DNA from: a virus
Virus record (IMG/VR): IMGVR_UViG_3300043788_000049
Coordinates: 23,272 to 87,271 of that record
Reading direction: 5' to 3' (one strand)
DNA: 64,000 nt
Shown here: positions 9,414-60,900 of the stretch, piece by piece
How the letters are laid out: each line of letters starts with the position of its first letter
How positions within the stretch are numbered: the stretch's first letter is position 1
Notes under the pieces: model-generated
What the model was told of the DNA's origin: nothing
The model's input: the letters and a program-made list of their open reading frames with translations, nothing else
The model's database searches: none
Translations under genes and position numbers: made by a program

Positions 9414-9665
9414 TTACGCCCTCTTGGCGCGTAGCTCATCAAGGACGTCGAAGAGATTGGGGGGATCGGTGAATGATTGCAAAGTCCAGACCCCGAATCT
9501 ATTTAATCGCCACGTCCATCCAGCCTGATGACCATTGAGCGCGTTTAGCCAAAGCACGCCACCGCGCCGGCGAAGCTGGAAATCAATATTCTTTGGGCAG
9601 ATAGAGAGGGGTCCTAGCTCATCCTCCGACAGATCGCCAACGCCTGGAAGCTTCTCAATGCTCAT
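9414..9665 (-). CDS. C-terminal DELR-tag family protein 1
   Basis: An 83-residue protein starting at Met 9665 (11-base overlap with the upstream gene). The body is a small Trp-rich beta-type domain (V-L-W-L-N-A-L, G-W-T-W-R-L, G-V-W-T-L). The last 15 residues carry the motif P-N-L-F-D-V-L-D-E-L-R-A found at the C terminus of at least six other small proteins in this window. The motif is predicted to be an amphipathic helix, perhaps a docking peptide. Function unknown. Confidence 0.65.
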   Translation of the reverse strand: MSIEKLPGVGDLSEDELGPLSICPKNIDFQLRRRGGVLWLNALNGHQAGWTWRLNRFGVWTLQSFTDPPNLFDVLDELRAKRA

Positions 9666-9933
9666 GGGCCCGCAATTCCTCAATGATGTCAAATAGATTG
9701 GGGTTTGGGTCCAACCACACCGGACAAAGCGTGCCGTCGCACCCGTAACGCCACTCGTTCCCCAAAAATATGCGCTGCCATGTAGAGTCTGGATACTTAG
9801 AGCGATCTTCCGCCATCAGAGGGCCAAGGATGCTCGGATAAGCCAGCCAATCGCCATCTTCCGGCAGCGCATTGACCGCTTCCAGCTCGATCGCCGTCAG
9901 CCGCCGCGCGCCTTCTCGAATCATGACGCTCAT
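9655..9933 (-). CDS. C-terminal DELR-tag family protein 2
   Basis: A 92-residue protein ending P-N-L-F-D-I-I-E-E-L-R-A followed by H-E-H. Its N-terminal segment (L-T-A-I-E-L-E-A-V-N-A-L) resembles the equivalent segment of the next gene (T-R-I-E-L-E-A-L-R-A-L), so these two are probable paralogues outside the tag as well. Overlaps its upstream neighbour by four bases. Function unknown. Confidence 0.65.
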   Translation of the reverse strand: MSVMIREGARRLTAIELEAVNALPEDGDWLAYPSILGPLMAEDRSKYPDSTWQRIFLGNEWRYGCDGTLCPVWLDPNPNLFDIIEELRAHEH

Positions 9934-10208
9934 TTGCGCAACTCGTCCAAGATGTCGAAAAGGTTGGGGCCGACCATCGCCCGGAACTCCTCATCGGGGC
10001 TTATCTGTTGCCACTGATACGAGTGGCCGCTCGAACTCACGTTGAGGGCGCAGACGACACTATTCTGGGTATTGCGCAGCCAAATCTTGCCGTCAGCGGC
10101 ACGCTCTACTGTCCAGTTCACCTTCTTATCCAGCGCCCGCAGAGCCTCTAATTCAATCCGCGTTGTGATGAATCTTCCGTCATTTGGTTCAAGTGTGAGG
10201 ACCGTCAT
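9930..10208 (-). CDS. C-terminal DELR-tag family protein 3
   Basis: A 92-residue protein starting at Met 10208, overlapping the methyltransferase stop by four bases. Body: helix I-E-L-E-A-L-R-A-L-D-K-K, then strands G-K-I-W-L-R-N and V-V-C-A-L-N-V. It ends G-P-N-L-F-D-I-L-D-E-L-R-K. Likely paralogue of the two genes downstream and of the tagged genes at 11.6-12.4 kb. Confidence 0.65.
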   Translation of the reverse strand: MTVLTLEPNDGRFITTRIELEALRALDKKVNWTVERAADGKIWLRNTQNSVVCALNVSSSGHSYQWQQISPDEEFRAMVGPNLFDILDELRK

Positions 10209-10987
10209 TTGCGTAACCAGCGAACCGAGAAGTCCACATGCGCCAGATAGGGCCTGATCCTCAGCGTTGAGAAGAACTCGTTGCAAGCGTCCCGACATCC
10301 TTTGAGGCACCAGTCATCGATAATCACGAAGCCGCCGGGCACGACCAGATCCCATAGGTGGTCGAACGCGACCTTGTAGCTGTCGTAGAGGTCGCCATCG
10401 AGCCGCAGGATTGCGATCGGGCCAACGTAATCGACCGGAACTGTGTGCTGGAACCAGCCCTTGTGGATGTGCAGATCGTCCAGCGGATAGCCGATTTGCG
10501 CCATCAGCCCGATCACATCGCCCAATTTAGCATCGCCGAGCGCGCCAGCGGCTTCGAGCGCGCCATCGCAGCGCCCAGGCGGCAATTTCTGCGTTTCGCA
10601 CGCCCAGATTATGTCGTCCTTGTCGAACCGAGGCCACGGAATGCCCTCGAAACTGTCAAAAGCGTGCAAAGCCCGGCGGCGAGAGCCAAACTTGAGATTG
10701 GCGAGCGCCATCGCGCCCAGAGCTCCGCCCCGCCAACAGCCCAATTCAACAAATGCGCCCGGTATCGCTTCCTCCTCGCAATAGCGGACCTGATCAATTA
10801 ATGTCGCAATCCCGTCATACGTGACCATGGTGTGAAGCTTGATGGCCTCGATGATCGGCCACATGACCGTGTGCTCGTCGCGATAGCCGCGCGACATGAA
10901 CTGCGAGTGGATCATCGCGTCCCCGATCGAGATAGCCTGCGATGAGAAACATTGGTCCGATGGGCCAACCCCTGGGTAAATCATCAT
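10205..10987 (-). CDS. TylF/MycF-like SAM-dependent methyltransferase
   Basis: A 260-residue protein. Residues 81-88 (E-L-G-C-W-R-G-G) are the SAM-binding loop. Residues 196-203 (L-D-G-D-L-Y-D-S) and the D-D pair at 224-225 after V-P-G-G-F-V-I-I match the metal-binding region of TylF/MycF (macrocin O-methyltransferase) enzymes, which methylate sugar hydroxyls. In a phage it might modify glycans or nucleotides; the substrate is unknown. It sits at the head of the tagged small-protein genes and overlaps the first by four bases. ATGATG gives two adjacent start choices. Confidence 0.75.
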   Translation of the reverse strand: MMIYPGVGPSDQCFSSQAISIGDAMIHSQFMSRGYRDEHTVMWPIIEAIKLHTMVTYDGIATLIDQVRYCEEEAIPGAFVELGCWRGGALGAMALANLKFGSRRRALHAFDSFEGIPWPRFDKDDIIWACETQKLPPGRCDGALEAAGALGDAKLGDVIGLMAQIGYPLDDLHIHKGWFQHTVPVDYVGPIAILRLDGDLYDSYKVAFDHLWDLVVPGGFVIIDDWCLKGCRDACNEFFSTLRIRPYLAHVDFSVRWLRK

Positions 10988-11032
10988 GCTTGATCCGGCG
11001 AGTTCCGTTGGTTAAGAGGCAGTTTATCACAG

Positions 11033-11236
11033 ATGGAGACGCGAGTGGAAACCCCGAGCGACAAATTGGACCGAGCGAAGCGCGATAAGCTGCTCGATAT
11101 TATCCGGCGAGTGATCGCCAACCCGGAGAACGCCAAGGAAGCCGCGGACGAGATCGCGCAAGACTGGTTTCCGATGATCAAGGTTGATGCCCGCGGCGCG
11201 ATACACTTTCGTGTGGGCTCGGGCCGCAAACGATAG
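11033..11236 (+). CDS. small hypothetical protein
   Basis: A 67-residue charged helical protein (S-D-K-L-D-R-A-K-R-D-K-L-L-D-I-I-R-R, then E-N-A-K-E-A-A-D-E-I-A-Q-D-W-F) with a basic tail. First gene of a three-gene plus-strand cassette; the next gene follows after nine bases. No family recognised. Confidence 0.55.
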   Translation: METRVETPSDKLDRAKRDKLLDIIRRVIANPENAKEAADEIAQDWFPMIKVDARGAIHFRVGSGRKR

Positions 11237-11245
11237 GAGCGACCA

Positions 11246-11425
11246 ATGAAGCTGATCCTCGCGTTGTTCGTGGCCCTCGGCCTCTCGGGATGCGCCACGG
11301 GCAACTATCCGAGCCAAGACTATAGCTGGGAGCACCACGAGGACCATGGATGGGACCACCCAGACCATCATGGCGACTGGCGTCATCCGAATCACCGCCG
11401 GCTCAAACATCAGGCAAAGCCATGA
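11246..11425 (+). CDS. histidine-rich lipoprotein, 59 residues
   Basis: ATG 11246 follows an AGGAG site with normal spacing; TGA at 11425. The N terminus is a lipoprotein signal (M-K-L-I-L-A-L-F-V-A-L-G-L then lipobox L-S-G-C at 13-16), so the mature protein should be lipidated at Cys16. The mature part is extremely rich in His, Asp and Trp (H-H-E-D-H-G-W-D-H-P-D-H-H) and could bind metal ions at the envelope. Overlaps the next gene by ATGA. Confidence 0.7.
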   Translation: MKLILALFVALGLSGCATGNYPSQDYSWEHHEDHGWDHPDHHGDWRHPNHRRLKHQAKP

Positions 11426-11631
11426 GCATCATTTCCAGCGTCGATCTGGCCCGCAAGCTCGTCATCATGGCGTCCGGCGAGGAAGTCCCGATCACCAATA
11501 TGTTCGATCGGCACGGCGAGGAAGTGACCGACCCGCGCCGCGCCGCGACCGTCGTTGCCGGGCCATGTGAGGCGGGATGGATTGCCACTGTCCTTAGCGA
11601 GGAGGAGCGGGAGGAGTTGGAGCCAGCGTAG
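11422..11631 (+). CDS. small hypothetical protein
   Basis: A 69-residue protein starting in an ATGA overlap with the His-rich lipoprotein. It begins with a hydrophobic strand/helix (I-S-S-V-D-L-A-R-K-L-V-I-M-A-S-G) and ends with an acidic helix (S-E-E-E-R-E-E-L-E-P-A). Its last 38 bases overlap the 3' end of the convergent minus-strand gene. Function unknown. Confidence 0.55.
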   Translation: MSIISSVDLARKLVIMASGEEVPITNMFDRHGEEVTDPRRAATVVAGPCEAGWIATVLSEEEREELEPA

Positions 11632-11902
11632 CGCGCAATTCCTCGATCACGTCAATGATGTTGGGGCCGGGCTCCTCCCACGCCTCAATGATCGGCCATT
11701 CCTCCAACTCGGGTTGGCGCAGATCGCGCGGCAGCCACCTGCCGTTGCTCATCAGAGCCCACACTCCTTGGATATTTCGTAGCATGAGCCCGTGGGCGTG
11801 CCGTGAGAGCACAAAATTAAGCGGAAGGTCTGAGCGCACTCGCTCGACCGCCCGTTCCTCAGCCTCACTCATCGGGAGGCAGTTAGGGTCATATCGGATC
11901 AT
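11594..11902 (-). CDS. C-terminal DELR-tag family protein 4
   Basis: A 102-residue protein starting at Met 11902 in an ATGA overlap. N-terminal helix (S-E-A-E-E-R-A-V-E-R-V-R), then strands (G-L-M-L-R-N-I-Q-G-V-W-A-L-M) resembling the W-L-R-N / C-A-L-N strands of tag protein 3. It carries P-N-I-I-D-V-I-E-E-L-R-A near the C terminus, followed by a Pro-rich tail that is absent in its relatives. Confidence 0.65.
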   Translation of the reverse strand: MIRYDPNCLPMSEAEERAVERVRSDLPLNFVLSRHAHGLMLRNIQGVWALMSNGRWLPRDLRQPELEEWPIIEAWEEPGPNIIDVIEELRATLAPTPPAPPR

Positions 11903-12147
11903 CGCCGCGCCCGCAGTTCGTCGAGGAGATCGAAGAGGTTGGGGGCGTCTACGGATAAGACGATCCAATGCCCGTCGAGCCCCGTTTCCTTTTCCCATGC
12001 CATTCTCGGGAAATGGCCATTTTCATCAACTGCGACGAAGGTGGCGAACTCGTAGCGAAACGTGCATATCCACTTGCCACCGCGAGGCAAAAGATCCGCG
12101 CCCGTGAAGATGCGCCCATCGGGCGTAAAGACCGGACTGCTAGCCAT
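11899..12147 (-). CDS. C-terminal DELR-tag family protein 5
   Basis: An 82-residue protein with a beta-rich body (K-W-I-C-T-F-R-Y, F-A-T-F-V-A-V-D-E-N-G, H-W-I-V-L-S-V-D) and the C-terminal motif A-P-N-L-F-D-L-L-D-E-L-R-A-R-R. Start overlaps the end of the membrane-anchored family member by eight bases. Function unknown. Confidence 0.65.
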   Translation of the reverse strand: MASSPVFTPDGRIFTGADLLPRGGKWICTFRYEFATFVAVDENGHFPRMAWEKETGLDGHWIVLSVDAPNLFDLLDELRARR

Positions 12148-12382
12148 CCCGCTTGGCCTCCAGCGCGCGTAGCTCCTCGATCACGTCCACAATGTCAGGG
12201 CCGGGAGGGGGCGGGTTCTTCCACGCATCATACTGCGCGGTCCAATCGATCCGGAGCGGATAGAGCCAATGAAGCACGAAGCCGAGAAGAAGCCCGAGCC
12301 CGAGGATCACGATTGAACCCATCATCACGATCGCCAGAAAGCCCAGGGCGATATTCACGACCATGTCGGGATCAATCATCAC
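12140..12382 (-). CDS. membrane protein with DELR-type C-terminal tag
   Basis: An 80-residue protein. Residues 8-42 are strongly hydrophobic (one long or two short helices, N-I-A-L-G-F-L-A-I-V-M-M-G-S-I-V-I-L). The soluble tail ends G-P-D-I-V-D-V-I-E-E-L-R-A-L-E-A-K-R. The body is unrelated to the other tagged proteins, which shows the tag is a separable module and could bring a common partner to the membrane. Overlaps the VWA gene stop by four bases. Confidence 0.65.
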   Translation of the reverse strand: MMIDPDMVVNIALGFLAIVMMGSIVILGLGLLLGFVLHWLYPLRIDWTAQYDAWKNPPPPGPDIVDVIEELRALEAKRDG

Positions 12383-13536
12383 GCACTCGGGTCCAGATCG
12401 AGCAACTTCCCGAACGGCGGCTTGTTCGAATAGCCTCCATATCGCACCCAGAGCACCGGACAGCCGGGTTCCTGGCCGAAGCTATGGCAGCACAGGTCGG
12501 TCAGATAAACGACGCCAGAGGCCTTGGGAGCGTGTTCTGCGGTCCATCGGAAGGCCGGAGCGAAATCTGTCCCCCCTCCAGGCTTCGGACACACGTTGAT
12601 GATGTCGCCGGCCTCGAACTCCAACGTCTCTTGGACCGCGCAATCGCAGAACCCGACAGTCAGCTTCTCGCACGCGCTCTCATCGAGGAAGCCCTGTAGC
12701 TCCGCCATGATCGCGGCCAGGGAGCGCTCGTCCATCGAGCCCGACGTGTCGACCCAAGCGACGATATGCGAGGGCGCGATCGAGCCCGACCCTGGAAGGA
12801 TTATCCCGTCGCCATAGTCGCGGCGCGACGGGCGCGTCCAATCGGTGTCAACGATGCGTGATTCGTCCGCCCAATCCCGGAATAGCTCCTTCCAGGTGAT
12901 CGTGGGCTTGTCCAAATCGGCCATCATCTTGACCAGGGGCGCGGGAATCGAGCCGACGTTCTTGGCGCGCGCCACCGCCATCGCTTGTCGCACCTGCACC
13001 TGGGCGCGGCGCTCGGCCTCCTTCATTTCCGAGGAGGCATAGGGCGGCGCAGCGTCCATCACCCCGCCGCACTTGCCGGGGTCGCTGCCATCGCCCCCCT
13101 TGACCTTCTTCGCGTTCTTGACCAGCAGGTTGTAGACCTGCTCGGTCGACATGCCCTCGTATTTCTGGTCGTAAAGGTGCGGGTTCGGCAGCTTGATGCC
13201 AGCGCGCCGCAGATCGGCGTTAATGACGAAATCGCCGGCAATGTTCCAGATGTCGCCCTGGCGATCGCCGCGGCGCGTGTGGTGGAGATAGCAAACGTGC
13301 ATCACTTCGTGCGCAAGGACAGCTTCAAGCTCCTCCATCTTCAGCTTCAGGACGAACGGCGCCCAATAGAACAGGCGCTTGCCATCCGTCGCCATCGTGT
13401 CGATGCCAGAGCCCTCGGGGCCCGGATGGACCCCCATGTGCATGATCAAGACGGCGAAGAATGGCTGGCTCATCATCAGCCGCGCCCGTGCCTTCAGGAT
13501 CTTCTTCTCAGCTTCGATCTGGTCTGGAGTCAGCAT
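12379..13536 (-). CDS. VWA-domain metallopeptidase-like protein (DUF2201 type)
   Basis: A 385-residue protein starting at Met 13536 in TGATG overlap with the phosphatase stop. N-terminal putative zinc peptidase region with H-E-V-M-H at 76-80. The C-terminal von Willebrand A-like domain has the metal-binding D-T-S-G-S at 263-267. This architecture (DUF2201/VWA-like) is normally encoded with a MoxR-type AAA ATPase, present here two genes upstream. Such pairs act as chaperone-like systems that remodel or insert cofactors into protein complexes; the phage target is unknown. Confidence 0.8.
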   Translation of the reverse strand: MLTPDQIEAEKKILKARARLMMSQPFFAVLIMHMGVHPGPEGSGIDTMATDGKRLFYWAPFVLKLKMEELEAVLAHEVMHVCYLHHTRRGDRQGDIWNIAGDFVINADLRRAGIKLPNPHLYDQKYEGMSTEQVYNLLVKNAKKVKGGDGSDPGKCGGVMDAAPPYASSEMKEAERRAQVQVRQAMAVARAKNVGSIPAPLVKMMADLDKPTITWKELFRDWADESRIVDTDWTRPSRRDYGDGIILPGSGSIAPSHIVAWVDTSGSMDERSLAAIMAELQGFLDESACEKLTVGFCDCAVQETLEFEAGDIINVCPKPGGGTDFAPAFRWTAEHAPKASGVVYLTDLCCHSFGQEPGCPVLWVRYGGYSNKPPFGKLLDLDPSA

Positions 13537-13967
13537 CAGAAATCTCCATCGGCGATCTGAGCGCAAGGGATTCCAAGCTTGCGCCATACATCCACGACGC
13601 GCTTCCTGTCCTCGAAAATCATGATCGGCTCGAACCCCGCCTCGCGCGCCTCAGCCAGCAACTCGACCTTGACCACGCTATCGTCTCGATAGTCGCCAGC
13701 CTTGCGCATGAAAAGGCCATGGATAAGCACTCCGTGCTTGGTCAGCCATTCCACTGTGAGTTGCCGGCACTCATCAGAGCGCCCCGAGAGGCACACGACT
13801 GGCGCAGGGAGCATCTGCGCCAGATCGATCATGTGAGGGATAGGCGCGTCGCCGTCGCACGCAGCGAAGAAGGCCCGCCAATCCTTTGGCTTCTTCTGGA
13901 TGTGATGCAGCCGATGTGACGGGTCCGAAAGCGTCCCATCGATGTCGAAAAACCATGCCCGCTTCAT
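13536..13967 (-). CDS. HAD-family phosphatase, polynucleotide 3'-phosphatase-like
   Basis: A 143-residue protein starting at Met 13967 after a G-rich ribosome site. D-I-D-G-T at 8-12 is HAD motif I (nucleophile Asp8). L-S-G-R is motif II-like, and H-G and M-R-K segments follow, with I-F-E-D-R as motif IV. The order matches the phosphatase half of T4-type polynucleotide kinase/phosphatase, which removes 3' phosphates during nucleic acid repair; the kinase half is missing. It lies between the MoxR and VWA genes, an unusual insertion. Confidence 0.75.
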   Translation of the reverse strand: MKRAWFFDIDGTLSDPSHRLHHIQKKPKDWRAFFAACDGDAPIPHMIDLAQMLPAPVVCLSGRSDECRQLTVEWLTKHGVLIHGLFMRKAGDYRDDSVVKVELLAEAREAGFEPIMIFEDRKRVVDVWRKLGIPCAQIADGDF

Positions 13968-13978
13968 TTTCTGCCCCC

Positions 13979-14968
13979 CTAGATCGAGATGTCCTGGTTC
14001 CGCGTCGCCCACTCGGTGTAGGCCTTGGTGGTCTTGAGCGAGGGATCGCGCTTGACCGCATCCGTGACCAGCGTCATCTCGAAGTCCTTGGTCAACCGGC
14101 CGCCATAGATGAGGATCGCTTCGAAATTTCCCCGATCCGCCTTGCGGGCCAGAGCGCCAACCACCGCAAATTGGGTGTTTGGAGCCGATGGAACCGCAGC
14201 CTTCCTCGGATGCGCGATGATCTCGGCCAAGGGCGGTAAGGTTTTATACGTCTGAATGAACGCCTCCAGTTCCGACGCCGCGCCCTCGCCAACTAATCCC
14301 TCGATCAGCTTTTGCCGAATATCGTCATCGGCATGGATGACCTTGGCGACCTGGACCCAGGACCGCGGCGACGGGAACGCCCGAACCTCGATGTTCTGCG
14401 GGACATTGTGGAGCAAGGCCGGCCGATAGCGCAGGAAGGCGCAGATGAGCGGTTCGATCAGCGCCTTGTTGGCCCAGGACTGCCAAGCGTCCATGTCCTC
14501 CTCGACGTCGATCCAGGCAAAGCGATTCGCCAAGCCAACCGGCATCTTGTTGACGCCGGAGCGGTCGATCTGCCGATTGCCCGCGGCGACGATCATTGTC
14601 CGGGGAGGCAATTTATGCAGGCCGACAGCCCGATTCCACACCAGTTGGAAAAATGCCGTTTGCACAGAAACGCTTCCCTGAACTAATTCGTCGATGAACA
14701 GCATCGTCGGCCTGTCGCCGTAGCTCTCCAGCTCCGTCAGCCACTTCGGCTTGGCCCAATCGACGCCCGCATCCGCCCGGAAGGGCAGGCCACGAACGTC
14801 AACTGATTCGAGCGTCGTCGCGCGCTCCTCGACCAGCACAGCGCCCAGCTCATCGGCGACCTGATAGACGCCCTCCGACTTGCCGATGCCGTTCTTGCCG
14901 GAAATCATCACCGACATCCCAGCCGCGAGATAGGCTTTCAGGCACTTCTTAGCCATCGTGACGTTCAT
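13979..14968 (-). CDS. MoxR-family AAA+ ATPase
   Basis: A 329-residue protein starting at ATG 14968 (AAAGGGG 8 nt upstream; a GTG six bases earlier is the alternative). Walker A G-K-N-G-I-G-K-S at 24-31, Walker B M-L-F-I-D-E-L near residue 90, sensor-1-like V-A-A-G-N near 128 and an Arg-finger region L-A-N-R-F near 148 identify a MoxR-type AAA+ ATPase. MoxR proteins work with VWA-domain partners; the partner is encoded downstream in the same operon. Confidence 0.85.
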   Translation of the reverse strand: MNVTMAKKCLKAYLAAGMSVMISGKNGIGKSEGVYQVADELGAVLVEERATTLESVDVRGLPFRADAGVDWAKPKWLTELESYGDRPTMLFIDELVQGSVSVQTAFFQLVWNRAVGLHKLPPRTMIVAAGNRQIDRSGVNKMPVGLANRFAWIDVEEDMDAWQSWANKALIEPLICAFLRYRPALLHNVPQNIEVRAFPSPRSWVQVAKVIHADDDIRQKLIEGLVGEGAASELEAFIQTYKTLPPLAEIIAHPRKAAVPSAPNTQFAVVGALARKADRGNFEAILIYGGRLTKDFEMTLVTDAVKRDPSLKTTKAYTEWATRNQDISI

Positions 14969-15037
14969 AGGCACAACCCCTTTCGTCGAAGCCTAATCGC
15001 TTCGGACAGCCGGCGCGAGGCCGGCTCCCCGCTGCGG

Positions 15038-15429: not shown

Positions 15430-15438
15430 ATGTTAACC
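15422..15438 (+). promoter_or_regulatory. hairpin enclosing a start codon
   Basis: GGTTAA (15422-15427) and TTAACC (15433-15438) are perfect inverted arms around the loop AAATG, which contains the ATG of the first plus-strand gene. The ribosome site AAAGGGG overlaps the 5' arm. Such a stem could mask initiation, or the palindrome could be a protein-binding site; either is inference. Confidence 0.4.
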
Positions 15439-15624
15439 ATTCACCGCACCGCCCAAGAATGCCAGAACCTCGCCGCTACCTTCGCCAAGGACGCCCTCGA
15501 AGCCCAGGAGCGCGGCGACGAAGGGATCGCCTGGGCCTTCATGGCCAAGTCAGCCTATTACGAGAATGAGGCCCTGGAGCAAATGAAGATCGAAGACCAG
15601 ATGGCCGAAGCCCTCGCGGCGTGA
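15430..15624 (+). CDS. small hypothetical helical protein
   Basis: A 64-residue protein whose start lies in a small hairpin. It is wholly helical (A-K-D-A-L-E-A-Q-E-R-G-D-E-G-I-A-W-A-F-M-A-K-S-A-Y-Y) with an acidic C terminus. First gene of the plus-strand operon. No family recognised. Confidence 0.6.
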   Translation: MLTIHRTAQECQNLAATFAKDALEAQERGDEGIAWAFMAKSAYYENEALEQMKIEDQMAEALAA

Positions 15625-15635
15625 AGGAGGACACC

Positions 15636-15725
15636 ATGAGAATCACACCGATCGAATTAGCTCTGATCCTCGCCCTGGTGGCGCTGGCTGTCACCGTCTC
15701 TATCGCAACAACCGCAGGGGTGTGA
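15636..15725 (+). CDS. 29-residue membrane peptide
   Basis: ATG 15636 follows a strong AAGGAGG site; TGA at 15725. The peptide begins M-R-I-T-P-I-E and continues as a single hydrophobic helix rich in Leu, Ala and Val. Its stop overlaps a GTG (15722) that is an alternative start of the next gene. Function unknown. Confidence 0.6.
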   Translation: MRITPIELALILALVALAVTVSIATTAGV

Positions 15726-15736
15726 GAATATTTGGC

Positions 15737-16015
15737 ATGAACCCCCACGCCCAGGCAGTCGAGGCGATCATGGAGGCGGTGGCGGAATATGCGCCGCCGC
15801 TGGATAAGCCTGTGGGGTTTCTCCATGAATTTCTCGACCGCGCGGCGTTATTGGACTTGGACGGAGCCGAAAACTATTTGCGGTGGTTGCTGAACTTGCC
15901 GACGGACACGCCCGGCATTCTCGTGCAACACGGATTCCGGTGGGAACGGGAGCCTAATAAGCGGCGCAGAGAGATCCTCGTGAACTGGCTCCGGCGCGTA
16001 AGGTTCATGAAATGA
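15737..16015 (+). CDS. N-terminal HAxxVExIL-tag family protein 1
   Basis: A 92-residue protein (start ATG 15737; GTG 15722 is possible). It starts with M-N-P-H-A-Q-A-V-E-A-I-M-E-A-V-A-E-Y-A-P, a helix shared with five other proteins of this operon. The remaining body, with L-R-W-L and I-L-V-Q-H-G-F-R-W-E, also resembles the family member at 17620, so these two are full-length paralogues. Function unknown. Confidence 0.65.
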   Translation: MNPHAQAVEAIMEAVAEYAPPLDKPVGFLHEFLDRAALLDLDGAENYLRWLLNLPTDTPGILVQHGFRWEREPNKRRREILVNWLRRVRFMK

Positions 16016-16557
16016 CCAAGCGCCACGTCCACCACATCGACGGCAACCCCAACAACCACGACCTCGCCAATCTGAGGTTGGTAAAGGCGAGCGTTGGCGT
16101 GTCGCCGAACTTGAACCCGGTGCCGCTTGGGAAGCTCTACGGCCGCTCCCCCGGCTCGCTCCCTGCCGACTTCGAAGAAGCGATGGACCGGATTAATTCA
16201 TTCAACCGTCGCTTCAAAACCCGCCTCGTGAAGGTGACGCCCCCGCCGGCTAACAAGGAACATGCGGCGGAGGTCCAGAGCATTCTGGAGACGGTGTGCT
16301 CGGTGGACTTCGCGCCATCGCCCCAAGGATTGCCAGGGATGCCCACTGAGGCTGATTTCGCCTATGCAGCCAGTATGGACAGCGCGGGCCGCGCCCTTGG
16401 GCATGTAGGCCGTCTTGCTGCCAATCTCTGCGGGTATTCAGAGCAAGTATTCGATTGGACTGTTGGCGAGGGACGCGCTTGGCTAGGGGCTACTCGCTCC
16501 TTCCGCCGCGATTGGCTCCGAGGCAAGGTCGAGCGCGCCTTGAGGGCCCGCCGATGA
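16012..16557 (+). CDS. HNH-motif fragment fused to the family helix
   Basis: A 181-residue protein. Residues 5-24 (H-V-H-H-I-D-G-N-P-N-N-H-D-L-A-N-L-R-L-V) reproduce the core beta-beta-alpha of HNH nucleases without the upstream half of the domain, so activity is doubtful. Near residue 83 it carries K-E-H-A-A-E-V-Q-S-I-L-E-T-V, the operon's shared helix, here internal. The C-terminal region is helical and basic. Both ends overlap neighbours by ATGA. Confidence 0.65.
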   Translation: MTKRHVHHIDGNPNNHDLANLRLVKASVGVSPNLNPVPLGKLYGRSPGSLPADFEEAMDRINSFNRRFKTRLVKVTPPPANKEHAAEVQSILETVCSVDFAPSPQGLPGMPTEADFAYAASMDSAGRALGHVGRLAANLCGYSEQVFDWTVGEGRAWLGATRSFRRDWLRGKVERALRARR

Positions 16558-16853
16558 CCCACGCCGCCGAGGTCGAGCGCATCCTGGCCCATGCCGAGGA
16601 GTATCTGGCTCCGCCGCAGCGGGTTTTTGATGCAGACTGGCTGACGGAGTGGTGCAAGGGCATGAGCGGTTTTTCGGCAGGGATCGCCGCCATATCCTGC
16701 GTGAGTTATTTCAAGCTAGATGAGCCAGAGGCGATGGTCGCCGACTTGCTTAACCGCCTTGGCTGGAGGGTGGCCGGAGCTACCGCGCGCGTCACAATCA
16801 TTCGCAATGCCTTGAGCATCTTTGGCGTCCGGACGAAGCAGGCTCGCCCATGA
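16554..16853 (+). CDS. N-terminal HAxxVExIL-tag family protein 2
   Basis: A 99-residue protein starting at Met 16554 with M-T-H-A-A-E-V-E-R-I-L-A-H-A-E-E-Y-L-A-P. The body contains W-L-T-E-W-C-K-G-M and a helix D-E-P-E-A-M-V-A-D-L-L-N-R-L-G-W, unlike the other members. Coupled to both neighbours by four-base overlaps. Confidence 0.65.
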   Translation: MTHAAEVERILAHAEEYLAPPQRVFDADWLTEWCKGMSGFSAGIAAISCVSYFKLDEPEAMVADLLNRLGWRVAGATARVTIIRNALSIFGVRTKQARP

Positions 16854-17149
16854 CCAACGACGCCCATAGCGCCCAGGTGGAGGCGATACTGGAGCAAATC
16901 GGGGCGTTTGCCTTCACCCCAGGAACCAACCTGCGGGTCTGCGTAGGCCAAATCGTTCCAGGTGATGTGATCGTTTGGGACACATGCCAAAGGATCGTGA
17001 GAAAAGTCCGGCATACCGGCGGCCAATATATCGAAGTCTCAATGAGAGGCGTTGACGGTAAGGTGTTCGACGTCGATTGGGACGTCACTCATCACGTCGA
17101 AATCCTCACCCCGCCATTGCCGGAATGTATCGCAAGAGGCTTGCTATGA
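16850..17149 (+). CDS. N-terminal HAxxVExIL-tag family protein 3
   Basis: A 99-residue protein with the shared helix (D-A-H-S-A-Q-V-E-A-I-L-E-Q-I-G-A-F) followed by a beta-rich body with G-D-V-I-V-W-D and Y-I-E-V-S-M-R-G, resembling a small beta-barrel. Body unrelated to the other members. Function unknown. Confidence 0.65.
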   Translation: MTNDAHSAQVEAILEQIGAFAFTPGTNLRVCVGQIVPGDVIVWDTCQRIVRKVRHTGGQYIEVSMRGVDGKVFDVDWDVTHHVEILTPPLPECIARGLL

Positions 17150-17373
17150 ACCCCGCCGATCACAAAGCCGCCGTCGAGGCGATCGAGGCAAAGGTCGCGG
17201 AGTATGAGGGGCCAGTGCCTGCCCACGATCGCTGGACTGTCGATTTGGGTAGCACAACCATCACGCCACTCTTGAGCGGCAACTTTAACGTGCTGAGTGG
17301 GTATTACCTTGTCGCAACGCCGGAAGAGGCAGCAAAAAACCAACGAGCCTTTTGGGAGAACCTAGACCTATGA
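17146..17373 (+). CDS. N-terminal HAxxVExIL-tag family protein 4
   Basis: A 75-residue protein starting at Met 17146 (ATGA overlap). The N-terminal helix (A-A-V-E-A-I-E-A-K-V-A-E-Y) is the operon tag. The C-terminal part contains N-F-N-V-L-S-G-Y-Y-L-V-A-T-P-E-E, closely similar to a segment of the virion-region protein at 51248. This is either shuffling or convergence. Confidence 0.65.
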   Translation: MNPADHKAAVEAIEAKVAEYEGPVPAHDRWTVDLGSTTITPLLSGNFNVLSGYYLVATPEEAAKNQRAFWENLDL

Positions 17374-17618
17374 CCGACGCCGTGACCATCAAGTCCTTCT
17401 CCGAACTCGCCAAGGAATGGCGGACCCGCAACCGCTACTCCCGCCCCCAGCTCTCCGAGCTGACGGGATACTCCCCCTCGGCCATCCAGGACATCGAGGA
17501 GGCGATCTACCGCTCCCCGCCCCATCCGGTCAGCCCGGAGGTCATGCGGCGCTACCGGCTGATCTGCGCCGCGGTGGAGCACAAACTGACGGATTGGGAA
17601 TTTACCGATCGGGGATGA
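17370..17618 (+). CDS. XRE-like helix-turn-helix protein
   Basis: An 82-residue protein starting at Met 17370 (ATGA overlap). Residues about 18-45 (S-R-P-Q-L-S-E-L-T-G-Y-S-P-S-A-I-Q-D-I-E) form a helix-turn-helix of the XRE/Cro type, followed by a helix bundle (R-R-Y-R-L-I-C-A-A-V-E-H-K-L). It lacks the family N-terminal tag and may regulate the operon. Confidence 0.6.
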   Translation: MTDAVTIKSFSELAKEWRTRNRYSRPQLSELTGYSPSAIQDIEEAIYRSPPHPVSPEVMRRYRLICAAVEHKLTDWEFTDRG

Positions 17619-17619
17619 A

Positions 17620-17892
17620 ATGACCCACGCCTCACAGGTCCAGGCCATCCTCGATCGCGTCGCGGAGTGGGAGACGCCGCATGCCGCGGTGATCGAAGCA
17701 GCCTTGGAGCAAGCCGCGCACATGGCTCCGGGCGAAGCCTTACGCTGGCTCAACGCTCGCTTCGGGACGCCAATCCCGCAGTTTTGGGTCCAGCACGAGG
17801 TAGGAACGTGGGGATCGATAATAAAGATTGAGGAGCGCATCGTTTGGCTGCGGCGAAATTGCCTCAGCCCGACGCTAGGCTCCGGGTCTTAA
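17620..17892 (+). CDS. N-terminal HAxxVExIL-tag family protein 5
   Basis: A 90-residue protein beginning [17 protein letters not shown]. The body (A-L-R-W-L-N-A-R-F, then [10 protein letters not shown]) is similar to family protein 1 at 15737. Last gene of the plus operon; its final 29 bases overlap the convergent minus gene. Confidence 0.65.
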
Positions 17893-23354: not shown

Positions 23355-24424
23355 GCGTGTCCTTCCAGTTCCTTCTTTCTTGCCTCGATGATCGCCAGCG
23401 CCTCGTGCTCGACGTCACTAGTCATATTGGGGAGGGAGTTGCGGAGCTTGCGCTGGGCCGGTTGTTTCCACCAACGGTCCAGTTCACCCCGATCCGTAAT
23501 CCGCCCGATCGTGAGAAAAACATAGTTCGGATAATCCTGACCGGTTCGCGCCTCGATCACATCCGCTAACGGGCCAGCGGGGACGGCTGGGTCCGCGTCA
23601 GCCGCCCCCGTCACGCCCGCGGAAGGCTCCAGAGCAGGGGTAGGACCCTGGGCTTCCGCGGGCGCTGGCGATGCTCCCTTGTCGATCGTGGAAGGAGCGC
23701 TCGCTTCGGTCGCCGGAGCGCTTTGCTCCAGCGTTTGGTGGACATGGTCGGCATTGAAGCCCGCGCGCGCCGCAGCGGCGGGGCTGAGCCGGCCGAGCAC
23801 GTTCGTCTTGGGGGTCACATCCTTGGCGTTGTCGGCGCCGATCGCCGAATCCTCAAGCTCGTCCTTACCGTAGGCACCCAGGAGAATATCTGGGCAATAG
23901 CGCCGGCACCATGCGCGCGCCGCCATATATGCCTGCTGTTGGTCGGGATCATTCTTCCAAAGCGGTGAATTTTTTGGGTTAATGTCCTTGAACTTTGGTG
24001 TCCGATATTCGAGGGCGTCGACCTCGCCCTTCATGTGGCCGGTGCAGATGCAGACGCGCTCTGGCCCTTCGCCTTCATAGGTAAACCGCAGGCGTTGTTT
24101 CAATGGAGCCCGGCGCTCGATGACGGCATGAAGAAGCTGGGCAAAATATCCTATCTGATCGTTGACGACATAAGACATTCGGGCAAGCGCAAAAGGCGAA
24201 AACCCCCACTCGTCCGCCTGAACGCAGATAGCCAAACACGATCCTATGTTACCACGTAAATAGAGCGGGACTGCCTTGTCGGAGACGGCCATTAACCGCG
24301 AGAAATCCATCATCTCGGCGACGTTCTTGAACGAAATGCCGCCGACCTTATCGTCAATTTTGATAAGAGCTGTCTTTTCCTGATCGATTTTGCTCTCGAT
24401 AGCTAAAACACGGTTGTCGCTCAT
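23351..24424 (-). CDS. recT: RecT-family single-strand annealing protein
   Basis: A 357-residue protein starting at Met 24424. The N-terminal ~200 residues match RecT recombinases: Y-L-R-G-N-I-G-S-C-L-A-I-C-V-Q-A-D-E-W-G near 60, a central Y-F-A-Q-L-L-H-A-V-I-E-R-R and W-K-N-D-P-D-Q-Q-Q-A-Y-M-A-A-R-A-W near 155. The rest is Ala/Pro-rich and flexible. It anneals single strands produced by the phage exonuclease encoded two genes upstream, for recombination and end repair. Confidence 0.8.
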   Translation of the reverse strand: MSDNRVLAIESKIDQEKTALIKIDDKVGGISFKNVAEMMDFSRLMAVSDKAVPLYLRGNIGSCLAICVQADEWGFSPFALARMSYVVNDQIGYFAQLLHAVIERRAPLKQRLRFTYEGEGPERVCICTGHMKGEVDALEYRTPKFKDINPKNSPLWKNDPDQQQAYMAARAWCRRYCPDILLGAYGKDELEDSAIGADNAKDVTPKTNVLGRLSPAAAARAGFNADHVHQTLEQSAPATEASAPSTIDKGASPAPAEAQGPTPALEPSAGVTGAADADPAVPAGPLADVIEARTGQDYPNYVFLTIGRITDRGELDRWWKQPAQRKLRNSLPNMTSDVEHEALAIIEARKKELEGHA

Positions 24425-24978
24425 TGTTGCCCCCATTTGCCCCAATATTTTACGGCCGCTGCGGAATACGCAGCGCTTGCTTCTTCCGGCGTTCCAAATG
24501 CGCCAAGATGGATGAGCGTGCCGTTAATTCTTATCTTCGCGTGCCACCGCACGGTCTTCCTAACGGCTCGAAAAACACCCCTAAATCCAGACGTATTGTC
24601 GATTTGCTTGTTGCGGTTGCGAGCGTTTTCAACCTGCGTTGCAGGTCTAAGATTTTTCCACCTATTGTCAGACTTAACCCGGTTTATATGATCAATTTCG
24701 GCGATCGGCCATTCGCCGGTAATTATCAGCCAGATTAAGCGATGCGCTAGATACAGCCGACGCTTAATCTGGACCGCGACATACCCCTTTTTACCAATGG
24801 TGCCAGCAATTTGCCCAGCCCACCTTTTGCGCCACCACAAAAGCTTTCGGCCAGTAAACCCAGGCCATTCTTTCCACCGTAAAATTCCTGTTTCGCTTTC
24901 ATATTCCAATATTGACCTGACAAATTGCGCCGACAGGTCGCTCTTCAATGGCTGGCCGTTATTGGCGAGAGCAGTCAT
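24421..24978 (-). CDS. HNH-AP2 homing-type endonuclease
   Basis: A 185-residue protein starting at Met 24978 (ATGA overlap). HNH nuclease region around H-R-L-I-W-L-I-I-T-G-E-W-P then I-D-H-I-N-R and N-L-R-P-A-T; AP2 DNA-binding domain at the C terminus (S-G-F-R-G-V-F-R ... H-L-G-A-F-G-T-P-E-E-A). Typical of selfish endonucleases that invade phage genomes; it separates recT from its exonuclease and is less GC-rich than they are. Confidence 0.8.
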   Translation of the reverse strand: MTALANNGQPLKSDLSAQFVRSILEYESETGILRWKEWPGFTGRKLLWWRKRWAGQIAGTIGKKGYVAVQIKRRLYLAHRLIWLIITGEWPIAEIDHINRVKSDNRWKNLRPATQVENARNRNKQIDNTSGFRGVFRAVRKTVRWHAKIRINGTLIHLGAFGTPEEASAAYSAAAVKYWGKWGQQ

Positions 24979-25913
24979 TCCCCTTCCATCCTTAGCTTTT
25001 GCTCGATCACGCCGCGGCGGCGCTCGCTTATTTCCAGATATTGAACTTCCTCTTGATTTCCCCCAGGGCCAGCCCACAGGCCCGAGTTGAACGCCTTGAC
25101 GAAACGCTCCAGGGCAAAATGGTTTTGCTTTTCCCCTAAAACCAGATCGTGCGGCTTGAGCGTGACCATCCGAGCCGAATAGGGAGGGGTCTTGCGGACG
25201 AAGTAGAAGGAGAAGTCCTCGATCTCCTGACCGAATAAAATCCGGTGGCCCTCCGCGACTAATGCAGCTTGTTGCTGATAATTATATTCCCCGACGGTGC
25301 GAACGAGATCGTCCCACTTCACGCTCTGGGTTGTCTTGAGATCCAAGTAGTTGCCCGAATCAGTCGGGATGACGTCGGGCCGCGCGAGCAGCCAGATCCC
25401 CGTGCTCTCGTCCTGCCATGCCATGGTCATTTCTATCAAACCATTGAGCACTCCCGCGCGCACCAGGGGCAGCTTGCCCAGCCCCGTCGCCATGCCTTTG
25501 ATGTCCTCGACCATGTCGGGCGTCAGGACGGTCAGGTCCGCCTCGGCGGCCTCGACGAGCCACTTCTTGCATTTGAGAGAATTGCCGCTCCATGGCTTCT
25601 CGTTGCCCTTCTCGTCCGTGTAGGTTTCCGGCCGGATGACGAAGCTCTTGCGAAACTCGGATTCCCCCATGAGCAAATGGTGGGTCGCGCGCCCGATGAT
25701 GAGGTCTTTGTTCTCGGGCTTCTCGATCCGCTCCGGGTTGTAGGGCGAAAACGCCCAATAGTCGGCCTCCGAATCATCGAAGATTGTGCGGAGACTGGAC
25801 GAGGACAGGGTGGGACCGACGCAAAGTCGTCCACTATGATAAGCGGAAATTCCTACGTTCGAATAAACGCCGGGCCTGTCGATGGGCTGGCCGGACCAGG
25901 GGATGATCTTCAT
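24975..25913 (-). CDS. PD-(D/E)XK exonuclease, RecE/exonuclease VIII-like
   Basis: A 312-residue protein starting at Met 25913. It has the architecture of phage exonuclease VIII-like nucleases: V-G-I-S-A-Y-H-S ... L-S-S-S-S-L-R near the start, G-R-A-T-H-H-L-L, then the catalytic R-P-D-V ... Y-L-D-L-K-T-T near residue 195 and a Y-N-Y-Q-Q-Q-A-A motif. Degrades double-stranded ends to give single strands for RecT. Confidence 0.75.
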   Translation of the reverse strand: MKIIPWSGQPIDRPGVYSNVGISAYHSGRLCVGPTLSSSSLRTIFDDSEADYWAFSPYNPERIEKPENKDLIIGRATHHLLMGESEFRKSFVIRPETYTDEKGNEKPWSGNSLKCKKWLVEAAEADLTVLTPDMVEDIKGMATGLGKLPLVRAGVLNGLIEMTMAWQDESTGIWLLARPDVIPTDSGNYLDLKTTQSVKWDDLVRTVGEYNYQQQAALVAEGHRILFGQEIEDFSFYFVRKTPPYSARMVTLKPHDLVLGEKQNHFALERFVKAFNSGLWAGPGGNQEEVQYLEISERRRGVIEQKLRMEGE

Positions 25914-54590: not shown

Positions 54591-54997
54591 AGCCTGAAGA
54601 TCGTCTTACCTGATTCCCAGCCGATATGAACGTCACCCGCCTGTGGCGAAAAGGGAAATTTGCCGCTACCGAGGGTGTCAATATGGGCGATCAGCCGGCT
54701 CGTGGCTCGGGAGCCGGTATCCTGGTAGACGACGATGAAATCGACGGAGGCCGCATCGACCGCCTCGATGACGACGCTATTGGCGCAGGCGACGCCGTTC
54801 TCCCCCGTCTTGCCCGTCAACACGACGCTCTTGGACACCACCGCCGCGCCGAGGTCGGCCAGAAAGCGATCCTTCTGGATATTGGCCTTGCGCTGCTTGC
54901 CATCGCAGAGGACCGCGCAGATTTTGTCCTCCAGCCACTTAATCTGGCCGCAGAGGAAGGCTTCACGCCCTTTCTCAAAGAGACTGTTCGCCATCAT
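54587..54997 (-). CDS. conserved small structural protein
   Basis: A 136-residue protein: S-L-F-E-K-G-R-E-A-F-L-C-G-Q-I-K-W, D-R-F-L-A-D-L-G-A-A, L-T-G-K-T, G-V-A-C-A-N-S-V, Y-Q-D-T-G, L-I-A-H-I-D and G-W-E-S-G-K-T-I-F-R-L at the end. This order is characteristic of a conserved small structural protein found in many tailed phages near tail genes. Function unknown. Confidence 0.6.
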   Translation of the reverse strand: MMANSLFEKGREAFLCGQIKWLEDKICAVLCDGKQRKANIQKDRFLADLGAAVVSKSVVLTGKTGENGVACANSVVIEAVDAASVDFIVVYQDTGSRATSRLIAHIDTLGSGKFPFSPQAGDVHIGWESGKTIFRL

Positions 54998-57900
54998 TCG
55001 ATCCTTGCGCCAGTGATCATGCCGGTTTCGTCGCGTGAGAAAGAGACCTTCGTCTTGTTCTCGGCTCCGACCGTCGCCCCGGTGATGAAGCCATTCTCAT
55101 CGCGAGAGAAGGAGACGCTCTTGGCCCCGCCCTCCATGCACTTGACTGCGGCCTTATAGGCTTTCTCAAGCTGGTCCGCCATTTCTTGGGTCATGACGTG
55201 AGGCGGTTCGGGGACGCCAGCCTCTTTCGCGGTGCGCGCGGCGGCGGCGATTTCCTCATCGGTCGCCAGCAAGCGGTCGTAGACGCCGCGCATTTCTTCG
55301 GAGATCGGACGCCCAAGGCGCAAGAGGCCACGGTAAATCTTGCGCAGCCAGTCCTTGAACATCTCGAAGACGCGGGCGAGGCCTTCCGATGGAGCTTTCC
55401 CTGAGGCCAGATAGTCCTCGAAGCCATCAGAGAACTTTTCGCGGTGTTCTGGCGTGAGGCTCTCGCGGTCTTTGGCTCCCACAAAGGCTAGCGCCGTGGC
55501 GGCGTCTGCCTTGATCTGGGGTGAAGCGTCCGGCGCGGAGGCATCCTCCAGCAGCTCGTCGAACCAAAGATGCGAACCCTCGTGCATGACTGTCGAGGCG
55601 TCCGCCGTCTCGAACAGCTTGATGATCCGCTGGTTGCCCTGGAAGGTGATGGCCCCGCGCTGCGCGCCGCCGGGTAGCGCCGGCCCTTGAGCCAATTCCT
55701 TCTCAGTCTCCGGCTCGATCGTCGCCGCGGGGTTCGGCGCCTTCATCGAATCGGATAGCGCTTTGATCTTCTGAAGCGTCTGCTGGTATTCGGCCTCCTT
55801 CGGCCATTTGCCGGCGGCCAGCTTTTCGAGCTTCTCGAGGTCCTTGCGCCGATCGGCCAGCGCCGTCTCGGTCGCCTTGGCCCTGCTGGCGATATTGCCC
55901 AGGAGGTTCTCAAAACGCCGGATCAGGCCGCCGGGGTCCGTCTCCTTATTAAGTATGGTCTGGGTCGGCGAGCCATAGGGGTCCGTGCCCTTGAGCATCG
56001 GCGTGCCCTTTAGATAGAGCCCGTCGCTGTCGTATTGGGTCTGGACCTGCATCTGCATTTCAAAGCCGGACAACTCGCCCAGGTTGATGATTTTGGGCGT
56101 GTAATAGCGGCTGGCGTCCAGAGCCAGCACGGTCTTGAGGATGGCTTCGCCAGCCGCCTTGCGCTCGGTGATCACCTTGCCGCCGACCGTGATCTTGAAC
56201 TTGTCGCCGGCAAGGTCCTGCACGCGATCGCCGTCGGCCTTCTCGGTCGGCAGGCGCTCCTCGTAGGTGGCGATGGCCGCGCGACTGGCGTTGATCTGCC
56301 AGGAGGCGCGATCGACGTTCTGCTTATGCGCGCGCCGCTGGGCGGAGAGTTGCCGAGCCTGCCGATCGAGTTCCGCCAATTCCATGATGCGAGTATCGCC
56401 GGAGGCCGCCGCCTTCATTTCCGCCGCCTCGGGGAGCGGGTTGTCGATGTCCTCGGCGTGGCGCGAGCCCTTGGCGCCCGACAAGACTTGGCTGATGAAC
56501 TTCGACTTCGTGTCGAGCTTTTGCCACATGAAGGCGTCGAACGAGCGCTTGGTCACGTAGCGGAAGATTTGCACCTGCTTGTTGAGGTTGCCTTGGCGGA
56601 CAATGCGCCCGTCGCGCTGTTCGACCTCCGCCGGCTTCCATGGCGCATCCAGATGGTGCATCGCGATCAGGCGATCCTGAACGTTAGTGCCGACGCCCAT
56701 CTTTCCCGACGAGCCGATAAGGACACGAATATCGCCAGCGCGGACCTTCTTGAATAAGCGCCCCTTGGCAGCATCGTCCTTGGCGTCGTGGATCGCCGCG
56801 ATCTGCTCCGCAGGAATGCCCTTATCGACCAAGCGCTGTTTGATGTCGGCATAGAGGTCAATCTTGGGTTGTTCGATCTGCGCCGGGTCGCCCATCTCAT
56901 CCTCGATAGGCTTCTTTGCCGCCACTTTGGTCTGCGGCACGCCCATGTCGAGGAAGACCATCTGGACAGTGCCCGGCTCTTTGCCCTTCTTCCAAATCTC
57001 GTGAATATTTTTAACAGCGAGCGCGATCTTGCCTTTGGGGTTGAAATCGAAATTAGGATCGATAAGGCGACCGTCCGTCGCAACCTTGCGTCCGGCCGTC
57101 ACGACCGAGAGCATGTTCGGTTGGCCCTTCTCAGGCCGCTTGCCTTTCAGACTCTCCGCCAATTCCACGAGCTTCTGAATGTGCAGTTCTTCCTCTTCCG
57201 AAGGGGTCGCTTGGACAATCTCAATCCCTGGTCCGCCCGCTTTGGTCCGAACCTCGGGCCGCGGCAGTTTGAGCATGTCCGCCGTCTTGGTGTCGGCGAT
57301 CTCGGAATAGAGGCTGATGAGTTCTGGAACGTTGACGAATTTCGAGAAGGACGAGACTTCCTTGAAGGTCCGGCCGTCCGCTGAAAGCTCCATGTTGTTG
57401 ACGACCTTGCCGAAGGTCGAGGCCCAGGCATCGAAGTTCTCCAGCCCCGCTTCCTTCAGACGGTCGAGTTCGAGATAGCGCATCATCGTCCAGAGTTCGG
57501 CCATCGTGTTGGAGACGGGAGTGCCGGTCGCGAACACCGCTGATCGGCCGGGGCGCTTTTGTTCGAGGTAGCGGATTTTGAGGAACAGGTCCTCAGCCCG
57601 CTGGCTGTCGCCCTGGGCGAGACCCTTAACATTCCCTAACCTACTGGAAAAATACAGATTTTTGAAAAAATGCGATTCGTCGATTACCAAATGATCGATC
57701 CCGGTCTCTTCAAATGAAACGCCAGTGTCCTTGCGTTCCTCGTTCAGGAGCTTTTGCAGCTTGTCCTCCAGTTTCTTCTTGGCCTTTTCGAGCGCCTTGA
57801 CCGTCGGCGAGCGCTTGTCATCGGTGTCGGCAATCTCCGCCTTGCGCGCCCGCTCCAATTCGTCGAGTTGCTCCTGGATGAAATTCTGCCGATGCTCCAA

Positions 57901-60900
57901 GCTTGTGTTGATACGCCCGAAGGCGGAATGGGTCATAATGACGCCATCCCAATCGTTCGCTGCGACCTTGGCGATAAACGCCTTCCGGTGCTCTCTAGTC
58001 ATTTCCTCCTTCTGAGCAACCAGAATTTTGGCGTTTGGATAGGCTTCGATGAACTCTCGGGCGAATTGCTCCAGCATATGGTCGGGGATAGCAAAAGCGC
58101 CTTTATTGATGAGCCCTAAGCGCTTCTGTTCCATCACAGCGGCAATGCTCGTGACGGTTTTTCCACTTCCAACACTGTGCGCCAGAAGCGTATTTCCACT
58201 CTGGACAATGCGCCAAACTGCATCCTTCCGATGCTTACGATCGGCGAATTTGGGATTGAGGCCGGGGAAGGTCTGGTGGGCGCCGTCGAATTGCCGCGGG
58301 ACGAGGTTGTTGTAGGTCCGATTGTAGATGGCCTCCAGGCGCTGCGCGCGCTCCGGATCGGCGAAGGCCCAGGCGTCGATGCCGCGCTCCGGGTCGCCGG
58401 TGAAGGCTTCCTTGAGCGCCTCGACGCGCACGCGCGCCGCCTCGGTTGCGCCTTGGTCGACCTCATAGACATCAGGATTGCTGCTGACGTGGTTCCGGAC
58501 GGTGATCTGGCGGTTGTTGATCGCAGCGTCGATCACATCGTCCACGCTCACCCGGTCGGTCCCGTAGGTGGTGTGGGCAGAGGATGAATACTGGCCGTGC
58601 TTGACCTTCCAGCCGCCGGTGACGGGAATGGTCGAAATCCGGGTGTTGTAGCCGCCGATCTCCTTGATGAACGCCTCGTAGACGTCCGCCGGGATCCATG
58701 GGGCCCCGAACTGCGCCATGATGTCCGTGCCGGTCAACGGGGTCGGCTGAACCTTCTCCAAGGCCGCGACATTGCGTGAGTAGGCCGGGTCGCCATCGGC
58801 AATGACGCGGGCCTCTTCGAGCTTCTTGACCACATCGCCGGAGAGATAGCGGTCCGCCGGCTCCCATTGCCGCCCGTTCGGGTTCTGGAAGATCAGATCG
58901 CCTAGCGCTTTCGCGGCGGCTTCCTCGCTCCCGACATTGAGCATCTGGCCGATCTGTTGCAGATCGACGCGGCCGGTGGCGTCGAGCGTCGCCGCGAGCG
59001 CATCGGCGGGGCCATTGATCTGGCGCTCCTTCGGCGGGGCGATGATGTCCTTCTTCTGAATGTCGGCGGGCTTGGCCGTGCCCGTCTCGGCGTCATATTG
59101 CTCGATCGCCGCGACCTTCCAGGAATCGGGGTCATCCTTGAATGGCGCGAAGTTTGGCGTCTTGGTGATCGTGACCGGCTCGCCCGCGCGCGTGAGGCGC
59201 TTGGTGGTCTTTGTTTCTTCCTTGTTGATCGGGCCATGCGCCTTGACGAACTGGTCATAGGCTTCGCGGAGTTGCTTGCGGAGAGCATCGGCCTTGTCGC
59301 CACCCGAGAGTTGCTCCTTGAGCAAGTCGTTGACGATATCGCGAATGCCGGAGAGCTTCTTGACCCTGCTTTCGTCATCCCCGGATAGCCTCTGCTCGAC
59401 GCCGCGGCCCTGCTCGCGCCGATAGACCTTGCCGCCCTTCGAGAAGTAGGCCCCTTCCTTGGAGGCTCCCGGCTCAATATCGCGCTGGTCGATGACGGGC
59501 GGCCGCGGCGAGCCTCTGGGGACGAAGGCTCCTTCCCGCATGGTCGCGCCAGCGCCGTGGATTGCCATTCCAAGGTCCTGCGGGTCGCCTATTAGCACCG
59601 GCTCATTCTTGGCATACATCGAGCCCATCAACCGCATCTCGCCCAGCATCATCTTCGGATGGTCGGCAAAATACTCGTTGATCTTGACCGGCCCCTCGGG
59701 AGTCGAAATCTCCTTGAGATTGGTCCAGTTCTCGCCCGGATAGTCCGGCTCGCCGGGGACCTTCTTGCGCAGAAAGATAATGTCGGTCGTGACCTCGGTG
59801 CCGGCATTCCCCGCGAATGCGCCCTTGTCTCCGCCGGGCAGGCGAATAGCGCCAACGAAATCCGCCGTCTTGGAAAGCTCGCGGCGTGTTCCCGCGTCCA
59901 CGCGATCCATCGTGTAGCGCGACGTGATGAACGAAACGACGCCGCCGGGGCGAACCTTATCGAGCGACTTGACGAAGAAGAAATCATGGATCGGATAGGA
60001 GCCGTAGGGCTTTTCGGTCAGATTGAAATTGCCGAACGGCACGTTCGAGATTGCGAGGTCGAAGTAATTGCTGGGCCGCTTCAGCGTCTCGAAGCCCTGG
60101 ACGTTAATGTCAGCATCCCCGTAGAGCGCCTTGGCGATCCGGCCGGTCAGCGAGTCCAGCTCCGTCGCGGTCCAGGCGGTGCGGCTCGCGAGGCTGTCGG
60201 GGATCAGGCCGATGAAGTGCCCAACGCCCGCGGCCGGTTCGAGCGCGAGGCCGCCGTTGAACCCCAAATGCTGGAGAGCGCCCCAGATGCCGCGGATGAC
60301 GTCGGGAGACGTGTAATGGGCATTGAGGGTCGAGGCGCGCGCGGCGGCGTATTCCTCATCGGTGACGAGCGCTCGGAGGGCGTCGCGCTGCTGCTTGAAC
60401 TCGGGCCCACGGTCGGAGAACATCTTTTGGGCGAACGCGCCCCAGCCGGTGTATTTGACGAGGGTCGCCTTTTCCTCCGGCGTCGCCTCGCGCGCCTCGT
60501 CCTCGATCAGCTTGAGAACCCGGATGGCGTCGATGTTGGCGTTGATCTTCGTCTTGGGGCCACCGACGCCGACTTGGTCATCGGGAGTGATGCGATAGTT
60601 CGAGCGGGTGCGCTCCGCGATCTTCTCCTCGGCCTCGGCTAGTCCTGCGCCTCGGGGGTCGGTTGATGGATCTGGTCGTGCCTCACCTGCTCCTGGACCT
60701 CCGCTTGGCGGCTTTGTAACTCCCTCACTCGGTCCAGGTAGGGCAGCTTCTGCACCTCCGGCTTGTTGTGGTGCTCCGCCATCAGGTGCTCGTCCATCTC
60801 CGACGCCGAGTTCCCCACCCCCTCCAGATAGCTCTGGAGGTTTCCGGATGCGCTTAGGTCTTTGAGGACGTGCGGCATTGCCTCCTTCAGGTATTGGTGG

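Follow-up and report, generated by a model that had tools for sequence, protein, structure and literature searches.

A short module shared by six small phage proteins with mostly differing bodies

Results

A run of overlapping small genes

The window, a stretch of 64,000 bases, corresponds to bases 23272-87271 of an 87,271-base IMG/VR record whose large genes lie on the − strand and in which a short run of small genes, from 15430 to 17892 of the window, lies on the + strand. Six of these small genes, named here by their first base, encode proteins that have a module of about 20 residues in common. The first, 15737 (15737..16015, 92 amino acids), carries the module as MNPHAQAVEAIMEAVAEYAPP in front of a body that is predicted to be helical and is homologous to that of the last gene of the run, 17620 (17620..17892, 90 amino acids), in which a 20-residue module precedes the body. 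Between them lie 16012 (16012..16557, 181 amino acids), which consists of the C-terminal half of an HNH_3 domain, a linker, the module and a body; 16554 (16554..16853, 99 amino acids), with MTHAAEVERILAHAEEYLAPP and a body of its own; 16850 (16850..17149, 99 amino acids), with MTNDAHSAQVEAILEQIGAFAFTP and a body that is strand-rich in a low-confidence model; and 17146 (17146..17373, 75 amino acids), with MNPADHKAAVEAIEAKVAEYEGP and a short body. The positions and genes of the original prediction for 15737-17892 are correct. Two genes of the run lack the module: an XRE-type helix-turn-helix gene within it (17370..17618), which matches the profiles HTH_31 (E = 3.8e-5, under Pfam's cut-off) and capH HTH (E = 1.9e-4), and a likely earlier member (15430..15624, 64 amino acids) that has AAAGGGG upstream of its start.

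Four-base ATGA overlaps, which had been ascribed to the whole set, link the successive genes 15737, 16012, 16554, 16850, 17146 and 17370; they do not extend to 17620, which starts one base past the stop of 17370. The codon scores of the + strand frames are positive (0.04 to 0.63), whereas those of competing open reading frames are zero or negative. Together, the overlaps and the scores support real, coupled genes. Neither a terminator nor a promoter was detected above chance level around the operon.

The phage has a terminase similar to that of Bordetella phage BPP-1 and to those of related phages, with at most 39% identity in named phages and 47% to the nearest terminase found. Its portal-like and tail proteins are of the podovirus type, and its capsid protein belongs to Phage_capsid_2. 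A DarB-like antirestriction protein of 2,993 amino acids with matches to helicase and methyltransferase families is encoded on the − strand (54994-63975); this protein and a BPP-1-like terminase co-occur in one phage. The phage also encodes a RecT-like annealing protein and exonuclease VIII, and the genes for these two surround a − strand gene with a complete HNH_3 domain (24421-25077, E = 4.4e-14). Adjoining genes for a MoxR-like ATPase, a HAD/PNKP-type phosphatase and a DUF2201 VWA-metallopeptidase occupy 12379-14974 of the − strand; the MoxR-like ATPase, near which the DUF2201 VWA protein is encoded, is related to proteins of N4-like phages.

The module is conserved at the amino acid level

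The module, H-x-x-x-V-[EQ]-x-I ... P, is N-terminal in five of the six proteins and internal in 16012. Its H, V, I and later P are invariant in the alignment of the six copies, and a regular-expression scan of all six frames returned these six places and a few loose matches that are unrelated. The original pattern had the module right and was too strict in its details, as 16850 has H-S, 17146 has H-K and I-E, and 16012 lacks E-[YW].

In leave-one-out searches, in which five copies trained a hidden Markov model, the sixth copy was the best non-training match in the entire 87-kb record in all six cases. The E values were 1.2e-7 for 17620, 3.3e-5 for 17146, 5.2e-5 for 16850 and 2.6e-4 for 15737, and they were weaker for the internal copy of 16012 (0.0065) and for 16554 (0.014); the next matches had E values of 0.14 or worse. 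A profile of all six copies revealed no seventh copy in the record, the next match having E = 1. At the DNA level, a degenerate pattern that fits three of the copies produced three matches against 0.00 expected from 100 shuffles. In pairwise comparison, 14 of the 15 module pairs exceeded shuffled sequences at p ≤ 0.002 (p = 0.04 for the last one). Considering the recovery of every copy by profile and the zero expectation from shuffles, the shared element of the six proteins is beyond chance.

The modules have a negative net charge in all copies, from −2 to −3, which speaks against nucleic-acid binding. Significant amphipathicity (p < 0.05) was found in one copy of the six.

At module positions where the residues are identical, the codons are identical in 57% of cases against an expectation of 46% from codon usage; the least conserved codon positions in the copies are the third ones. 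Since synonymous sites are near random while the residues are kept, conservation acts on amino acids and not on DNA. This points to module copies that are old and have been retained through selection on the protein; it does not demonstrate the rapid diversification that the original prediction considered possible. The same evidence bears on a reading in which the N-terminus would be kept for expression or turnover, as a start context for coupled genes or a signal for a host protease, and not for binding a partner. In five genes that are linked by ATGA overlaps or adjoin, the module begins within the first residues, which would suit such a role. Nevertheless, codons are not conserved where residues are, the sixth copy lies about 80 residues from its start, and the coupled helix-turn-helix gene 17370 has no module. 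We consider this explanation very improbable, with the protease signal as its more tenable form.

Most of the bodies are not detectably related

To compare the bodies, we removed the module and aligned the remainders locally in all 15 pairs with BLOSUM45 and BLOSUM62 against shuffled sequences. A clear relationship was seen for 15737 and 17620 (BLOSUM45 z = 4.3, 0 of 1000 shuffles; BLOSUM62 z = 2.8, p = 0.013), and the full-length proteins are about 35% identical from end to end. The 16554/16850 pair is marginal (z = 3.2 and 2.8, p = 0.008 and 0.019 with the two matrices, uncorrected for 15 pairs); we do not count it as related, a relationship being possible. None of the remaining 13 pairs stands out from shuffled sequences. 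The notion that the bodies differ therefore holds for most of the set and fails for 15737 and 17620, with 16554 and 16850 weakly similar. An end-to-end alignment of all members as a single paralog family was looked for and was not found, as one of the 15 body pairs is clear and one is marginal. Remote homology below the level of detection may nonetheless connect some of the bodies.

AlphaFold models of 16850 and 15737, which were calculated without deep alignments and are of low confidence, both contain a helix at residues 3-17. In the 16850 model (pLDDT 41), this front helix is followed mainly by strands, and in that of 15737 (pLDDT 58) by four helices. Foldseek returned no match at E ≤ 0.001 for the weak 15737 model. 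PADLOC, Pfam, PHROGs and NCBIfam profiles identified the HNH piece alone in the six genes, all other matches having E values of 0.017 or worse, so that the HNH fragment of 16012 is the sole recognizable activity among the bodies.

This fragment, amino acids 5-27 of 16012, corresponds to positions 20-42 of the 46 positions of the HNH_3 profile (PF13392) and scores 22.6 bits against a curated cut-off of 24.8; the domain is thus incomplete, and its missing first half was not found upstream in the frame of 16012. Phage HNH_3 endonucleases resemble 16012 in this stretch, yet 16012 has only the C-terminal half of their domain and the remainder is unrelated. The internal module, NKEHAAEVQSILETVCSVDFAP, is encoded at 16252-16317 of the + strand, about 80 residues from the start. 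It is closely preceded by in-frame GTG codons at 16228 and 16234, where an internal start is possible, though a clear ribosome site is absent.

The comparison of the bodies leaves room for ordinary divergent paralogs: a single small ancestral gene would have been duplicated in tandem, the products would belong to one class of fold and function, and the helix would be the best-preserved part of a common domain. The end-to-end similarity of 15737 and 17620, the weak one of 16554 and 16850 (z about 3) and the adjoining genes of identical orientation all agree with this, as does the relatedness of some bodies in the second family described below. This is a serious rival, given that 15737 and 17620 are plain paralogs and that similarity soon becomes undetectable in bodies of this size, 50 to 80 residues. 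On the other hand, the similarity of most pairs of bodies does not rise above noise, the secondary structures predicted with low confidence differ (all-helical in 15737, strands in 16850), and the 16012 module sits in the middle of the protein, behind the HNH piece. We regard divergent paralogs as possible, on balance somewhat doubtful.

A second family with a C-terminal tag

Six small genes of the − strand within 9414..12382 (lower ends at 12140, 11899, 11594, 9930, 9655 and 9414) encode products that end, or nearly end, in the tag PNLFD[ILV][IL][DE]ELR. That a second, C-terminally tagged family lies nearby was part of the original prediction and is borne out by leave-one-out profiles, which recover every copy (E = 8.1e-8 to 2.8e-5). 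A DNA pattern of this tag fits five of the six genes and has no match in IMG/VR. Two of the 15 pairs of bodies are related, 11899/9930 (z = 5.7) and 9930/9655 (z = 4.7), and one is marginal (p = 0.014). The body of 12140 contains a likely transmembrane stretch.

The proximity of this cluster to the + strand run, in the opposite orientation, suggests a common theme; a functional link between the two is speculation. Its boldest form, in which the N-terminal and C-terminal helices dock onto one another or onto a common hub, so that interchangeable small effectors are put together in varying combinations, strikes us as highly unlikely.

Searches for relatives of the module

The profile search that had been proposed as a check finds all six copies in the record and no relative beyond it among 43 records with related terminases (mostly short contigs) and a sample of 754 Alpha- and Gammaproteobacteria. 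For the 385 Alphaproteobacteria, three matches at E ≤ 0.02 compare with about eight expected by chance. The 369 Gammaproteobacteria yielded four matches at E ≤ 0.005 compared to about two expected, two of them at 2e-4 and 3.5e-4. All four are embedded in longer frames whose translations look like different proteins, in our assessment a DUF559-like protein, an RsmD-like protein, an iron-sulfur protein and a methyltransferase, and we therefore regard them as look-alike helices.

Five of the six proteins were compared by tblastn with 50,697 phage records, and 16850 was searched against phages by pattern in IMG/VR. No relative was found by tblastn: the best match (E = 0.05) is in the HNH stretch of 16012, and elsewhere there was no match or one with E of 0.2 or worse. 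A match to Rhizobium phage RHEph21 was discarded (E = 5). Matches of the degenerate DNA pattern in IMG/VR and in 84,980 prokaryote species are attributable to chance, as the best of them scores 13 bits, where the real copies reach 42 to 51, and six stretches retrieved from IMG/VR with an alignment-derived pattern contain no relative. Most of these searches rest on exact short patterns, and records very near the source may be omitted from them.

Discussion

A candidate docking tag

We propose the following model for the origin and function of the run. Tandem duplication would have given rise to a block of small co-translated genes. Each copy would have retained a short N-terminal helix of acidic character, H-x-x-x-V-[EQ]-x-I-x-x-x-V-x-E-Y..P, whereas the other parts of the proteins underwent divergence, replacement or fusion; in 16012, the helix came to follow a broken HNH endonuclease. 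As a docking tag, the helix would bind a single partner shared by all six proteins, either from the phage or from its host, and would thereby recruit the various small bodies to one site or complex, much as the capsid targeting sequence does for the internal proteins of phage T4.

The modular part of this model, one tag on differing bodies that are translated together, was already contained in the original prediction and is supported by the profiles and the pairwise tests. Binding of a partner by the helix, the sharing of one partner by all six proteins and an effector role of the bodies are inferred; 'effector set' is a plausible term for the six proteins. Of the readings considered, we favor, with moderate confidence, a docking tag for several bodies, because a conserved short N-terminus in front of unrelated bodies matches the pattern of the T4 internal proteins. 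Counting against docking, 15737 and 17620 are paralogs of the ordinary kind over their full length, and kinship among the remaining bodies may have been obscured by divergence. The significant amphipathicity of a single module copy, the low confidence of the structure models and the failure of the searches to find the module in another phage weigh against it as well.

Short tags common to unrelated small phage proteins offer a means of spotting genes with linked functions among the phage ORFans, on which homology searches shed no light. If the docking model is true, a 20-residue peptide would be a handle on six proteins, and the C-terminal tag on six more.

Comparison with known systems

Polymorphic effector and toxin systems combine a common N-terminal part with variable C-terminal bodies. 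The proteins described here have the same constant front and variable rear, but they are far smaller, have no recognized secretion, trafficking or toxin domain and are accompanied by no immunity gene.

The literature on small phage proteins with a shared terminus provided one useful precedent, that of T4. Its internal proteins are diverse and conserved only in the targeting sequence (PMC3012670), and they are injected (PMC9391042). These properties, together with a sequence signature equal to that of ipI, ipII and ipIII and the presence of a DarB-like antirestriction protein in our phage, suggest a special case of docking in which the module, as a capsid targeting sequence, would bind the scaffold and the bodies would be packaged and injected as counter-defense. 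The gene neighborhood is unfavorable to such packaging: the operon is on the + strand, apart from the − strand head and tail genes, and adjoins the MoxR/VWA-type genes. Furthermore, no prohead protease was found among the structural proteins scanned, a subset of the phage proteins; an [LIF]-x-E cleavage site is present in some modules only; and the modules do not resemble the T4 targeting sequence, MKT[YF].EF, a comparison by eye having revealed no common motif. Packaging is an unlikely form of docking here.

In its general features, the run resembles T4 IPI, IPII and IPIII, which are likewise small, share a short stretch at the N-terminus in front of bodies that are for the most part unrelated, and give the same signature in the pairwise test: the N-terminal 25 amino acids of ipI, ipII and ipIII reach z = 5.7 to 13 and their bodies z = −1.3 to 2.6. 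The run conforms to this pattern with the exceptions of the related pair 15737/17620, the marginal pair 16554/16850 and the internal copy of 16012. It differs from the T4 internal proteins in that its six genes form a single run in a non-structural neighborhood.
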